Positions 19,712 to 24,559 of a stretch of DNA of 60,345 nucleotides are shown in pieces (the first letter of the stretch is position 1; each line of letters starts with the position of its first letter). Origin of the DNA: Syntrophus sp. PtaU1.Bin005 (GTDB taxonomy: Bacteria > Desulfobacterota > Syntrophia > Syntrophales > Syntrophaceae); assembly GCA_002067745.1 (NCBI GenBank), contig MVRU01000008.1:1-60345 (forward strand), given 5' to 3'. The notes under the pieces were generated by a model. It was not told the DNA's origin and did not search any database. It saw only the letters and a program-made list of their open reading frames with translations. Made by a program: the position numbers and the translations under genes.

Positions 19712-21709
19712 TCAATTCCCGTGACTGAAGATCACGGAGCAGGAGGCGGTCCGTGTCATCGGAGATCCAGGCGCTGGATGCTGCTGCGTCGCCCAGCCGT
19801 TGCCTGCGATTTTGACTTCAATGCCACGCTGTTTCGCTTTTCTGAGGACATCCCGGATACTGAGGCCGAGGAAATTGGGCATCAGGGCTTCATCGGTCAG
19901 CATGTTCGCCGGCGCCACGCCGGGTGAAAGATCACCGGAAGAAGAAACCAGCTTCAGCTTCATGTTTCCGCCTTCTTCCTGGTCCAGCTCCGGAGTTGGA
20001 TTGGGACGAATGTGAGGTTTAAAGCATGTCAGGATCTGTTCTCCAATCGCCTTGAAAACCGGAGCGGCGGCAACGCCACCCCAGCGGTCTTTTTGCGGTT
20101 CATCGAGAATAACCAGGATCGCAACCTGGGGGTCCTCAGCAGGGAAAAATCCCATGAACGACGTTTTCACCCGTTCGGATGAATAAGCATTCCGTGCATG
20201 ATCATATTTCTGCGAGGTCCCGGTCTTTCCGGCAACGGAGACGCTCTCTATCCGGGCGTTCTTCCCTGTTCCGTCCTCCTGCCCCACGATATCGGTCATG
20301 ATGGCCGTGAGATGCCTCGCCGTATTCGGCGATATGACCCGCCGAACTGCCGTGGGCGAGTAGCTGCTTACAATCTGACCCTTTTTATCCACAAGAGCCC
20401 GAACGACATAGGGTTTCATCATGGTTCCCTGATTGGCGATCGTGGACAGCGCGGTGATAAGCTGAATGGCGGTGACCGAAATTCCCTGCCCAAAAGCGAC
20501 CGTTGCCGCGTCCACCCTCGTCCAGTCGCCGACGGGGCGGAGCAGTCCCGGAATCTCCCCTGGAAGATCGATCCCTGTCCTCGCCCCGAAACCGAAGCTG
20601 CGGATATAGTCGTAAAATTTTTCCTTTCCCAGCTTTTCCGCAATCTTGACCGATCCGATATTGCTCGAATATTTAAGAATATCATGAACGGAAAGCATGG
20701 CGTGGCGCTTCCGCTTGGCTTCGTGAATCACCCGGTTGCCGATGGCATAGGCCCCATTTTCACAGTAGAAGCGGTCGCTTTCCCGGACGGCCCCCTCTTC
20801 GAGGGCGGCAGCAACCAGGAAGGGTTTGAAGGTTGATCCGGGGTCAAAGCAGTCTGTAACCGCTCTGTTCTTTTTGTTTTCCGAAGAGACGGTCCTCAGC
20901 GCATTGGGATCGAAGCCCGGAGAATTGGCCAGCGCCAGGATTTCTCCCGTCTTGGGATCCATCACAATCGCCAGCCCCCCCTTGGCTCCTTTGTCCCGGA
21001 CAGCGGCTTTGAGCTGAGATTCCACAAGGTGCTGAATGCGGCTGTCTATGGTGAGAACGAGGCTCAAGCTTTCGTCAGACGAAATCGAAGCCTTTTCCAC
21101 CCTGGGGAAAAGCACGTTGCCTTTTGCATCCCGCGTCCAGACAAGCTTTTCCGGTGTGCCCTTCAGGTATTGATCGTATTTGATTTCCAGCCCCTCCAGC
21201 CCGACCGAATCGTAACCTACCAAACCGACCAGCTGGCTGGCCAGTTCTCCGTTGGGATAAAATCTTTTGGGCTCCTTGACGAGAAAAATTCCCTCGATGC
21301 CCGCATCCTCCACCTTCCTGGCAATCTCGGAAGGGATTCTGCGGGCAATCCAGCAGAATCTTTTCGAGTGAAGAAGCTTTTTCATCACTTCCTGCCGGTC
21401 AATGTCGAGAATGGAGGCTATTCTGACGGCCGCATCGACGGGGCGGGCCATTTTCGAAGGATCCGCACAGACCGAATCGACCTGCAGACTCGCCGCAAGT
21501 TTTTCACCATTCCGGTCAAAAATGATCCCCCGTTCCGGCGGCAGTTGGAGGGTCTTGGTATGCTGCCTCTGTGCAAGCTCCTTCAAGGCCTTGCTGGACA
21601 TAATCTGCAGATGAATGGCCCTGGAAAAAAGGGCAACGAACAAAACGACAAAAAAGACCAGCAGCGTCACCAGCCGAAACCTCAGCCATTTGACGGATTC
21701 CGTGTTCAT
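19712..21709 (-). CDS. ftsI: Septal peptidoglycan transpeptidase FtsI (PBP3) with PASTA domain
   Basis: Class B penicillin-binding protein that crosslinks septal murein. The 665 residues include one N-terminal membrane helix (about 11-30) and a PBP dimerisation domain. The transpeptidase domain follows with STFK at 292-295 (catalytic Ser292), SSN in YSSNIGSVKI, and KTGTS. A PASTA domain closes the protein (about 608-665, beginning MPNFLGLSIRDVLRKAKQRG), a feature seen in deltaproteobacterial and Gram-positive relatives but not in E. coli FtsI. The start overlaps the ftsL stop by four bases. Confidence 0.97.
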   Translation of the reverse strand: MNTESVKWLRFRLVTLLVFFVVLFVALFSRAIHLQIMSSKALKELAQRQHTKTLQLPPERGIIFDRNGEKLAASLQVDSVCADPSKMARPVDAAVRIASILDIDRQEVMKKLLHSKRFCWIARRIPSEIARKVEDAGIEGIFLVKEPKRFYPNGELASQLVGLVGYDSVGLEGLEIKYDQYLKGTPEKLVWTRDAKGNVLFPRVEKASISSDESLSLVLTIDSRIQHLVESQLKAAVRDKGAKGGLAIVMDPKTGEILALANSPGFDPNALRTVSSENKKNRAVTDCFDPGSTFKPFLVAAALEEGAVRESDRFYCENGAYAIGNRVIHEAKRKRHAMLSVHDILKYSSNIGSVKIAEKLGKEKFYDYIRSFGFGARTGIDLPGEIPGLLRPVGDWTRVDAATVAFGQGISVTAIQLITALSTIANQGTMMKPYVVRALVDKKGQIVSSYSPTAVRRVISPNTARHLTAIMTDIVGQEDGTGKNARIESVSVAGKTGTSQKYDHARNAYSSERVKTSFMGFFPAEDPQVAILVILDEPQKDRWGGVAAAPVFKAIGEQILTCFKPHIRPNPTPELDQEEGGNMKLKLVSSSGDLSPGVAPANMLTDEALMPNFLGLSIRDVLRKAKQRGIEVKIAGNGWATQQHPAPGSPMTRTASCSVIFSHGN

Positions 21710-22053
21710 CGCTTAGCCCCGCTTCCTCCAAGATGGATGATCTGTTCCCTCTCAGGGTAGGTCATCTGCAGTTTCTCTTTCACAATCGCTTCAATGCGAC
21801 CCGGTGCCTTGAGCGTTGCAATATCAACTTTCAACTGGCGCTGTTCTTCCAGGAGCTGCCCCCTGCGATTCATCTCCTCGGCAATTTTATAATCCAGCTC
21901 CGTCATTCGAACGTGCGACCAGACATACACCAGGGCTACGCCCATCAGAACGAAGGCCGCGATGATCAGGTGCGTATACTTCACCCCCGTTGATTTGCTC
22001 TGCTCCGGCGACTCCTCGGGAGGCGGCATGTCCGGCGAATCGTCGATCGTCAA
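21706..22053 (-). CDS. ftsL: FtsL-like cell division protein
   Basis: A 115-residue bitopic protein in the ftsL position between rsmH and ftsI. An acidic cytoplasmic tail (1-26, rich in Pro, Glu and Asp) is followed by one membrane helix (about 27-46) and then a heptad-like region (about 50-85) typical of the FtsL coiled coil. A conserved-looking RIEAIVKEKLQMTYPEREQI segment, as in FtsL/FtsB family tails, comes last. Sequence identity in this family is low, so position and topology carry the call. It starts 3 bases after rsmH. Confidence 0.88.
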   Translation of the reverse strand: MTIDDSPDMPPPEESPEQSKSTGVKYTHLIIAAFVLMGVALVYVWSHVRMTELDYKIAEEMNRRGQLLEEQRQLKVDIATLKAPGRIEAIVKEKLQMTYPEREQIIHLGGSGAKR

Positions 22054-22056
22054 GGG

Positions 22057-23004
22057 CTAAATCCTTTCCGCAGTTCGCAGTCTCGCACTTCGTGATCGGG
22101 GATTGGCATCCACCTCGCTTGAGGACGGCGTGATGGGCTTTCTGTTCAAAACGGTCAACCGGGGACGTTGTCCACAGACGCAAAAGGGAATGTCGGGCGG
22201 ACAGATGCACCCCTTCTCCAGAGAGCGGAACCGGGTTTTGACCATGCCGTCTTCCAGGGAGTGAAAGGAAATGATGGAAAACCGCCCCCCCGGCTTCAGG
22301 CAGTCGATCCCCTCGTGGATGGCCCTGTGAAGGTTGGAAAGTTCATTGTTAACGTAAATCCTGAGTGCCTGGAAGGTGCGCGTCGCGGGATGAATTTTCC
22401 TGTGCCGGGCAGACCCGGGCAATGCGCCGGCGACGATGGCGGCCAATTCCGTCGTTGTCCGAATCGGGGCGTCTTTCCGTTTCGCTGCAATCGCCCGGGC
22501 TATCCGACCTGCCATGATTTCTTCTCCGTACCGTCTTATGATGTCCTTCAATTCCCTTTCGGAACAGGAATGAAGAACATCATAGGCGCTTCGACCGGAT
22601 TGCGGGTCCATGCGCATGTCAAGAGGCGCCTCATGAAGGAAGCTGAACCCCCTTTCCGCTGTGTCCAACTGATGGGAAGAAACCCCAAGATCCAGTAAAA
22701 TACCGTCGACTTCAGAGATCTTTTCGCCTGCAAGCACGGCTCGAATATCGGCATAGTTCGCCTTGACAAGCCGCTTTCGCCGGCCAAAGGCCTCCAGGCG
22801 TTTCCCTGCGGCCTCCAGGGCCTGGCCGTCGACATCCATCCCGAGAAGAAATCCAGCGGGGGCCGATCGTTCCAGGATGAGCGCGGCGTGCCCTCCCCCG
22901 CCAACCGTTCCGTCAACGTAAATACCGCCGCTATGGCAACTCAGTGAAGCAACGGCTTCTTCAAGAAGCACAGGCTCATGATAGGAATCCCCCTCGGCCG
23001 GCAT
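22057..23004 (-). CDS. rsmH: 16S rRNA m4C1402 methyltransferase RsmH (MraW)
   Basis: SAM-dependent enzyme that methylates the N4 position of C1402 in 16S rRNA. The start is placed at ATG 23004, two bases after the mraZ stop, because an upstream in-frame start would overlap mraZ by 64 bases. This gives 315 residues. Motifs are YHEPVLLEEAV, YVDGTVGGGGHAALIL (SAM loop), ILLDLGVSSHQLD, ERGFSF, ATRTFQALRI and FSIISFHSLED. Its usual 2'-O-methylation partner at the same base, RsmI, is encoded at 40764-41624. Confidence 0.97.
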   Translation of the reverse strand: MPAEGDSYHEPVLLEEAVASLSCHSGGIYVDGTVGGGGHAALILERSAPAGFLLGMDVDGQALEAAGKRLEAFGRRKRLVKANYADIRAVLAGEKISEVDGILLDLGVSSHQLDTAERGFSFLHEAPLDMRMDPQSGRSAYDVLHSCSERELKDIIRRYGEEIMAGRIARAIAAKRKDAPIRTTTELAAIVAGALPGSARHRKIHPATRTFQALRIYVNNELSNLHRAIHEGIDCLKPGGRFSIISFHSLEDGMVKTRFRSLEKGCICPPDIPFCVCGQRPRLTVLNRKPITPSSSEVDANPRSRSARLRTAERI

Positions 23005-23006
23005 TC

Positions 23007-23453
23007 TCAGAGCCCGAGTTCCGTCATGTAATCCCCGAAACCATCGAGATTCCCCGATGTATCCTGACAATCCTTCTCATAGAGGTCCCGATTCCAGATT
23101 TCGATAACCCGCAGCATGCCGGCAAGGACGATCTCTTTTTCCAGGCTTGCATAGGCGCGAAGGCTTGGGGGAATCAGGACCCGCCCCTGGTTGTCGATGG
23201 TGCAGCTGACGGCGCCCGCCATGAAAAAACGCTGAAAAGACCGGCTTCTTTTGTCGAGCAGGGGGGCCTGCCGGATTTTGTCTTCGAGAAGCGACCACTC
23301 CTTTTCAGGAAAAACCATGAGATAACCGTCCCATTTCGCAATGATCAGGCGATTGTCATAGTAAGCAGCCAGAACCTCACGGAATTTAGCCGGAAAAATG
23401 ATACGCCCCTTGTCATCAATGGTATGGGAATATTCTCCCCGAAAGCCAGCCAT
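23007..23453 (-). CDS. mraZ: Transcriptional regulator MraZ
   Basis: DNA-binding repressor/regulator of the dcw cluster and its first gene. ATG at 23453, preceded by GAGGGGTGGG, gives 148 residues. An upstream in-frame start at 23501 would lie inside the promoter and is rejected. The protein has the two SpoVT/AbrB-like halves: [21 protein letters not shown] near residue 5, and [18 protein letters not shown]-like [14 protein letters not shown] near 80. AGTGG repeats directly upstream match its expected binding site, so autoregulation is likely. Confidence 0.96.
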
Positions 23454-23457
23454 CCCA

Positions 23458-23492
23458 CCCCTCACATCCACTTTAAACCACTTTACTCCACT
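23458..23492 (-). promoter_or_regulatory. MraZ operator: AGTGG repeats at 10-bp period
   Basis: On the minus strand AGTGG occurs at 23488-23492, 23478-23482 and 23468-23472, and a degenerate fourth copy AGGGG lies at 23458-23462, each exactly ten bases from the next. This matches the established form of MraZ boxes, which are short GTGG/TGGG-type direct repeats at one-helical-turn spacing upstream of mraZ. The repeats sit between the predicted transcription start (about 23494) and the mraZ ribosome site, a position suited to repression. Confidence 0.85.
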
Positions 23493-23500
23493 AGGCTGCA

Positions 23501-23529
23501 AATATAAAGAGGGGATTCCTGTTTGTCAA
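23501..23529 (-). promoter_or_regulatory. Sigma-70-type promoter Pmra
   Basis: The minus strand reads TTGACA (23524-23529), a 17-base spacer, then TATATT (23501-23506): a perfect -35 and a five-of-six -10 at ideal spacing. The site begins 8 bases past the mltG stop at 23537, and the predicted start falls just ahead of the AGTGG operator repeats. It should drive mraZ and the genes that follow. Confidence 0.85.
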
Positions 23530-23536
23530 GGAAAAA

Positions 23537-24559
23537 TCACGCGTCTTTTTCCTTTGCAAGTCGGTATCTTAGAATAGCATCATTGTGTTCTTTCAGAGTC
23601 TTGGAAAACTGGTGGGATCCGTTGCCCTTGGACACGAAATAAAGATACTCCACCCTGGCGGGATTCAGCACAGCCAGGAAAGAGTCCTTGCCCGGATTCG
23701 CGATGGGACCCGGTGGAAGACCTTCTATGCGGTAGGTATTGTGGGAGGTTGGCATCGACAAATGACGACGCGTGATTTTTCCTTCGAAAGGCGCCATGTG
23801 GTAAACGGCTGTGGGATCGCTTTGAAGACGCATGCCTATTTTCAATCTGTTGAAAAAAACCGCTGCGATGAGAGGTTTTTCCGCACGATGGCCCGTTTCC
23901 TTGCCGATCAGAGAAGCCAGCGTGACAAATTCGTTCAAGGTCAGCCCCATCGCTCCGGCCTTATCGATCATTCCGGGATCGATGACGCTCCAGAATTGTT
24001 CCACCATGCGGCGAATCAGCTGTTCCGGGGTGATGACGTCGTCGAAAAAATAGGTATCCGGATAGAGGTAACCCTCGGCGCTGCCTTCTTCAATCCCCAG
24101 GCTCCGCAAAAACGTCCGGTCCGTTGCCAGGGACAGAAATTTTTTTTCATCAACAAGATGCAGCCTGGCCAAATGGGCGGCCAGCTCCCTCAAATTCATA
24201 TCCTCGGGAACGGTAATTCTGCAGACATCGGTTTCACCTCGTGAAAGTTTGTTTACAATGGCCAGCGGGGTCATCTTCCCGGAGAAGGTATATTCTCCCG
24301 ATCTCAGATGTCTTGCGGCACCCTTCGTCAGAACCAGGACGCAGAAAAAGGGGGTGTTGCGAACCAGCCCCTCCTTCTGCAGCTTGTCCACCACCTCGAA
24401 AAATCCTGTTCCCGGAAGAATTCTCACCTTTTTCACTGGAAGAACCGGGTCTACCGGCCGGTCGATATAAAGGAGAAACCAGCCCGCCGTCAAATAAGCC
24501 ACGATCAGCAGGAGCCGCGTCAGCAGGACGTTTTTCTTACTTCTTTTTTTTCTTTTCAT
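23537..24559 (-). CDS. mltG: Endolytic murein transglycosylase MltG
   Basis: Inner-membrane lytic transglycosylase (YceG family) that cleaves nascent glycan strands and is thought to end polymerisation. The 340-residue protein has a very basic N-terminus, a single membrane helix (about 11-31), a LysM-like region (VRILPGTGFFEVVDKLQKEG) and the catalytic domain with Glu221 in LASLIGKETG, then FFNRLKIGMRLQSDPTAVY and GLPPGPIANPGKDSFLAVL. It overlaps the ruvX stop by four bases and precedes mraZ, placing a wall enzyme just upstream of the dcw promoter. Confidence 0.95.
   Translation of the reverse strand: MKRKKRSKKNVLLTRLLLIVAYLTAGWFLLYIDRPVDPVLPVKKVRILPGTGFFEVVDKLQKEGLVRNTPFFCVLVLTKGAARHLRSGEYTFSGKMTPLAIVNKLSRGETDVCRITVPEDMNLRELAAHLARLHLVDEKKFLSLATDRTFLRSLGIEEGSAEGYLYPDTYFFDDVITPEQLIRRMVEQFWSVIDPGMIDKAGAMGLTLNEFVTLASLIGKETGHRAEKPLIAAVFFNRLKIGMRLQSDPTAVYHMAPFEGKITRRHLSMPTSHNTYRIEGLPPGPIANPGKDSFLAVLNPARVEYLYFVSKGNGSHQFSKTLKEHNDAILRYRLAKEKDA

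Follow-up and report, generated by a model that had tools for sequence, protein, structure and literature searches.

A putative autoregulatory MraZ operator with three boxes in 10-bp phase ahead of the dcw cluster in Syntrophus and its class

Introduction

Although MraZ ranks with the most widely conserved regulators of bacteria, to our knowledge its operator has been characterised in few species. Pmra of Escherichia coli K-12 is reportedly one of these, the MraZ operator there being attributed to work by Eraso et al. in 2014. The K-12 leader reads AGTGGGAAATTGTGGGGCAAAGTGGGAATAAGGGG and shows a GTGG core, a 10-bp step, AAAGTGG, and AGGGG at the fourth register. In Mollicutes the operator consists of AAAGTG[T/G] repeats (Fisunov et al. 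2016, cited in PMC8475190), and PMC8475190 states that MraZ of Mycoplasma genitalium represses its cluster and places the sole motif in the mraZ promoter region. Complexes of M. genitalium MraZ with its promoter have already been solved (9r4j and 9sz7). For Burkholderia cenocepacia, PMC7761207 describes a site of four 7-nt repeats with 3-nt spacers that overlaps the start site, together with binding of MraZ to the PmraBc fragment.

Here we analysed a 60,345-nt stretch of DNA from Syntrophus sp. PtaU1.Bin005 (hereafter, the window), whose putative mraZ operator belongs to a type described before in E. coli and mycoplasmas, here in an understudied class. Like the K-12 leader, that of the window carries three GTGG cores at 10-bp steps just past the -10 hexamer and before mraZ, with AGGGG next, whereas the K-12 boxes read GTGGG and its -10 is weaker (TAAACT with a spacer of 18, as picked by script). 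The likeness to Mollicutes lies in AAAGTGG, present in two of the window boxes, in an array found essentially only at mraZ and in the same predicted MraZ fold, but the window belongs to a higher-GC genome with a fuller dcw cluster, and its MraZ is 26–28% identical to the M. genitalium chains in fold alignments. PmraBc of B. cenocepacia resembles the window in its 7-nt repeats, its 3-nt spacers and its position downstream of the -10, with four repeats reported there and three conserved here.

Results

A near-consensus promoter is followed by a phased repeat array

The elements of the control region, all on the minus strand, are as follows.

23524..23529, minus strand: -35 hexamer TTGACA, exact in 141 of 142 class leaders
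23501..23506, minus strand: -10 hexamer TATATT, 17 nt from the -35; the spacer is 17 in 130 of 142 class leaders
23491..23497, minus strand: predicted transcription start zone, placed by promoter spacing
23488..23492, minus strand: putative MraZ box 1, AGTGG, with GTGG at 23491-23488; core kept in the class
23478..23484, minus strand: putative MraZ box 2, AAAGTGG, with GTGG at 23481-23478; AAA precedes box 2 in 120 of 135 arrays
23468..23474, minus strand: putative MraZ box 3, AAAGTGG and then ATG, with GTGG beginning at 23471; most of the class has GTGGAGG
23458..23463, minus strand: GAGGGG, most likely the mraZ Shine-Dalgarno sequence and previously called a degenerate fourth box; site of the best anti-Shine-Dalgarno pairing

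The first-pass annotation of this DNA had described a TTGACA-N17-TATATT promoter, repeats at exact 10-bp steps ahead of mraZ and AAAGTGG in two copies, and all three descriptions were borne out. TTGACA-N17-TATATT (23529-23524 and 23506-23501) agrees with 11 of 12 consensus positions, and the two other promoter-like sites between 22500 and 25500 reach 9 of 12. Transcription would start 6–8 nt past the -10, near 23494, where the nearest purines are A23497, G23496, A23492 and G23491. AGTGG occurs at 23492-23488, 23482-23478 and 23472-23468 and is succeeded by AGGGG at 23462-23458, each step being exactly 10 bp, and boxes 2 and 3 are the two copies of AAAGTGG. The gap between the -10 and the first GTGG is 9 nt, and by sequence the array sits downstream of the -10. 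Two AGTGG motifs 10 bp apart are expected 0.08 times in the window and were observed twice, while three in phase are expected about 0.0002 times. The phased three-AGTGG pattern has one occurrence in the 2.9-Mb genome and its reversed control none, and the phased array is far above chance.

The array is conserved across the class sample

Conservation was assessed in 149 genomes of the class, all from one order and many of them drafts or metagenome-assembled genomes, and the counts below are not independent events. MraZ was found in 143 of these, and 142 leaders were read after leaving out one (G146) in which the MraZ N-terminus was unmatched; the array is kept in that genome while the N-terminal half of mraZ is not matched (G146:C28:14448-14839), pointing to a deletion or an assembly error. 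Start codons were set by script, with two moved by hand (L076 and L078) and two probably misassigned (L134 and L141).

The first-pass annotation had named a lack of the phased repeats in related genomes as one possible refutation of its reading; GTGG-N6-GTGG-N6-GTGG is present in 135 of the 142 class leaders. Triple GTGG at periods 6–9 and 11–15 was found in none of the 142, and 200 shuffled sets likewise gave none. Among the seven leaders without a perfect array, five differ by one mismatch, L120 has undetermined bases and L141 matches at 10 of 12 positions; the last (genome G055) has no convincing box array, a doubtful start codon and an MraZ below the family cut-off. By pattern alone, the array occurs in 136 of 149 genomes, representing 49 of 52 genera, and in each case at mraZ. 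The six class genomes without an MraZ match are also without the array, although their assemblies may miss the region. The -10 hexamer is TATAGT in 92 leaders, TATCTT in 17 and TATATT, as in the window, in 11 of 142.

Box arrays are common in the wider phylum

We extended the comparison to a phylum sample of 118 genomes, of which 112 had MraZ; four of the latter were class genomes, leaving 108 other leaders. Thirty of these were available as loci, 60 were fetched and 18 were left out as redundant by family. With E. coli, the sole representative from outside the phylum, this made 91 leaders, and 88 remained once L257, L261 and L273, for which the script gave no start codon, had been dropped. 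A triple array was present in 45 of the 88 and at least a double at 10 bp in 73; no other period tested between 6 and 15 gave GTGG doubles in more than 3 of 88 leaders. Fifteen of the 88 lack a GTGG pair at 10 bp, some of them carrying GTG or GTGTC repeats, and the exact GTGG core is therefore not universal. GTGTC, the T form of the Mollicutes AAAGTG[T/G], was seen twice in L274 and once each in L277, L298 and L304. In L271, L280 and L282, TCCCAT (the reverse complement of ATGGGA) occurs amid the boxes and resembles one in inverted orientation. Box type was compared with MraZ residues by eye only.

The boxes of the different groups differ mainly in the base that follows GTGG. It is A in 315 of 405 class boxes and G in each of the three from E. 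coli; the 147 wider-phylum boxes have G (72), T (47), A (22) or C (6) at this position. The repeat consensus had earlier been judged closer to the Mycoplasma form than to a TGGGN form of E. coli, which was overstated, as E. coli K-12 shares the 10-bp GTGG core and likewise carries AAAGTGG. TGGGN and AAAGTG[T/G] appear to be one box described in two ways.

Box 3 overlaps the ribosome-binding site in most of the class

The best anti-Shine-Dalgarno pairing in the window leader falls on GAGGGG at 23463-23458 (-7.9 kcal/mol), where a standard anti-Shine-Dalgarno was assumed because the genome gave no match to the 16S 3'-end pattern. Elsewhere in the class the arrangement differs. The consensus for the class reads GTGGAG[T/C]AAAGTGGNTTATTGTGGAGG; in 135 of 142 leaders the start codon comes 9–16 nt past the third GTGG core. 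AGG follows the last box in 123 of 135 class arrays and GGG in 8. In 131 of the 135 the best pairing falls at least partly on a GTGG core, which indicates that box 3 normally holds the ribosome site of the class, compared to 14 of 44 wider-phylum triple arrays, several of these 14 pairings being weak or badly spaced.

The four class arrays with the best pairing elsewhere are those of the window, G019 (leader L110), G067 (L037) and L083, the last of which still has AGG behind box 3, with a better match further downstream. GG is missing after box 3 in the window and G019 (GTGGATG), in L037 (GTGGAGT) and in L134 (GTGGAGA, with a doubtful start codon), and three of these four arrays have a separate Shine-Dalgarno sequence. 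Only the window and one congener combine GTGGATG at box 3 with a separate Shine-Dalgarno sequence one turn downstream. Where the ribosome site moved away, AGG was lost and GTGG kept, such that the constraints imposed by operator and translation are separable.

Spacing from the promoter varies

The gap between the -10 and box 1 is -2 or -1 nt in 8 and 6–11 nt in 134 of the 142 class leaders; a stricter promoter search, covering 134 class leaders, gave one gap of 39 nt. In the wider set, gaps range from -2 to 13 nt (32 triple leaders, E. coli included). A fixed helical phase between the -10 and the operator, suggestive in the class, was dropped on this spread, and the variable distance implies no constant placement with respect to RNA polymerase. 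In L070, L074, L076, L078, L080, L081 and L114, box 1 merges with the -10 (TATAGTGG or similar); these leaders belong to three genera (g7, g41 and g6) and have the array about one helical turn nearer the promoter.

The exact array appears to mark essentially one target in the class

Away from mraZ, the 149 class genomes hold 12 exact arrays by manual count, and the reversed control gives 19. In the genome of the window the one exact match is at mraZ, and one-mismatch arrays elsewhere number 5 compared to 10 in the control. A wider MraZ regulon was rejected on these counts, off-mraZ exact arrays being no commoner than the control. Judged by pattern, the exact array appears to mark essentially one target in the class sample, in agreement with M. 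genitalium, for which PMC8475190 gives the only motif at mraZ. Of the six phylum genomes without an MraZ match, one contains exact arrays, two scattered copies (L325 and L326), and the other five contain none.

The array heads a standard dcw cluster

The genes around the array, all on the minus strand, are as follows.

23537..24559, minus strand: mltG, upstream of mraZ, ending 7 bp before the -35
23007..23453, minus strand: mraZ, 148 aa with two MraZ domains (PF02381, TIGR00242), start codon ATG at 23453-23451
22057..23006, minus strand: rsmH (mraW), start tentative, reading frame open from 23070
21706..22053, minus strand: ftsL-like reading frame with a TTG start, above the FtsL Pfam cut-off and just below the TIGR02209 cut-off
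19712..21709, minus strand: FtsI/PBP2-type transpeptidase with a PASTA domain

The array lies directly upstream of mraZ, and mraZ, rsmH, the ftsL-like gene and the FtsI/PBP2-type gene form a standard start of a dcw cluster. The mraZ product scores above the cut-off for both PF02381 and TIGR00242, with PF02381 matching two stretches. In an alignment of 29 MraZ sequences, D13, G16, R17, D87 and R91 are invariant and G90 nearly so, which we take to be the D-x-x-G-R-type motif in each of the paired MraZ domains. Of five structure models of the window MraZ, with mean pLDDT from 75.9 down to 41.9, the best was compared by Foldseek and matched MraZ of M. pneumoniae as well as the 9r4j and 9sz7 complexes of M. 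genitalium, at E values of 9e-13 to 6e-8.

Upstream of mraZ, ruvX and mltG lie on the same strand. A simple scan of the minus strand between mltG and mraZ gave no terminator-like site, and read-through from mltG is therefore possible. Sequence resembling mltG was found no further than 1.5 kb from mraZ in each of 30 class loci (out of 142) and, in the wider phylum, in 2 of 30, as searched with the window MltG at E 1e-5, which may miss diverged mltG of the wider phylum; among named relatives, mltG-like sequence is upstream of mraZ on the same strand in 74 of 80. These 80 loci, all from close relatives, overlap the genomes surveyed above and served solely for naming, for this mltG comparison and for the structure alignment. 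The presence of mltG beside mraZ is a possible class-specific extension of the dcw neighbourhood.

Discussion

We interpret the region as an autoregulatory MraZ-box operator, with a near-consensus sigma-70 promoter, three boxes, feedback by MraZ and AGGGG as the ribosome-binding site, and assign this reading a probability of roughly 0.93. In hand are the sequence, its conservation, the strict 10-bp period, near-uniqueness in the genome and the predicted MraZ fold, from which we infer binding, repression, the start site and feedback. The promoter would drive mraZ, rsmH, ftsL, ftsI and further genes, and a ring of MraZ, the product of the first of these, would bind the three GTGG boxes one helical turn apart, contacting a single side of the helix from about +1 to +30, a span that would include the start and the leader. 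Bound in this way, MraZ may block initiation or promoter escape at its own promoter, and the result would be negative feedback on the cluster. Ribosomes would load at box 3 itself (GTGGAGG) in most of the class and one turn downstream of it in the lineage of the window. The earlier description of a Pmra control region thus stands for a sigma-70-type promoter with 10-bp phased MraZ boxes before mraZ, but not for the number of boxes or the preferential likeness to Mycoplasma.

The number of boxes depends on how AGGGG is read. It could be a working, weaker MraZ site that completes a true four-box operator, as in B. cenocepacia, and it does keep the exact 10-bp register, as does the AGGGG of E. 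coli K-12. GGGG also stands in register between true boxes in three wider-phylum leaders (L252, L258 and L259), a real fourth GTGG is present in 4 of 44 wider-phylum triple arrays, and a four-box MraZ complex has been solved (9sz7). We nonetheless consider a fourth site unlikely. AGGGG is without the T of GTGG, a GTGG at the fourth register (+30) was found in 1 of 135 class arrays when scored up to the start codon, the register varies among four congeners (AGGGG, AGGGG, TAGGC and AGAGG), and in the window the best Shine-Dalgarno pairing coincides with it. The four boxes of the first-pass annotation are not upheld by these counts, and AGGGG is, judging from the sequence comparison, most likely the Shine-Dalgarno sequence of mraZ, with an operator of three boxes. 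Going further and reducing box 3 to a box-like Shine-Dalgarno sequence would leave an operator of two boxes, which would fit the overlap between Shine-Dalgarno sequence and GTGG core in 131 of 135 class arrays. This is highly improbable given that the window, G019 and G067 lost the AGG after box 3 and kept an in-register GTGG, and that third boxes also occur in the wider phylum, where the best pairing lies off the cores in 30 of 44 triple arrays.

Other readings place the function in the guanines or in the RNA. A G-quadruplex has been proposed for PmraZ of Staphylococcus aureus, in a guanine-rich stretch just past the mraZ promoter (PMC11796246), and the G-rich leader of the window could be a regulatory element of that type. 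There is very little chance of this, as a G-quadruplex needs neither a strict 10-bp period nor the T of GTGG, kept in 135 of 142 leaders, and the tracts here are mostly GG with 8-nt loops; the strict period, as it appears in the sequence comparison, led us to drop the idea. It seems more likely that the S. aureus stretch contains MraZ boxes. The repeats also lie within the predicted 5' leader, where they could form an RNA motif such as a riboswitch or an attenuator, but this we hold to be scarcely credible. In 8 of 142 class leaders box 1 runs into the -10, which would leave part of the box out of the transcript, and an RNA element was rejected since the leader has no Rfam match at gathering cut-offs and folds no better than shuffled sequences (z -0.2). 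The ordinary fold of the leader fits a DNA element.

The proposed autoregulatory three-box operator can be set against 230 leaders, 142 from the class and 88 from the wider set with E. coli, in which the 10-bp GTGG array is the rule in the class sample and common in the phylum. The comparison splits an operator constraint (GTGG) from a translation constraint (AGG), and this separation makes both the three-box model and the coupling between operator and ribosome site readily testable by a few point changes. The modest variant here, which we did not find noted in the open-licence literature searched, is an operator box that, as far as sequence patterns indicate, usually doubles as the ribosome site in the class. 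GTGGAGG is probably read twice in the class, by the MraZ ring on the DNA (box 3) and by the ribosome on the mRNA, with the Syntrophus lineage providing a natural split in which the ribosome site lies one turn downstream. If so, the double-read GTGGAGG would couple how strongly MraZ represses to its own translation.
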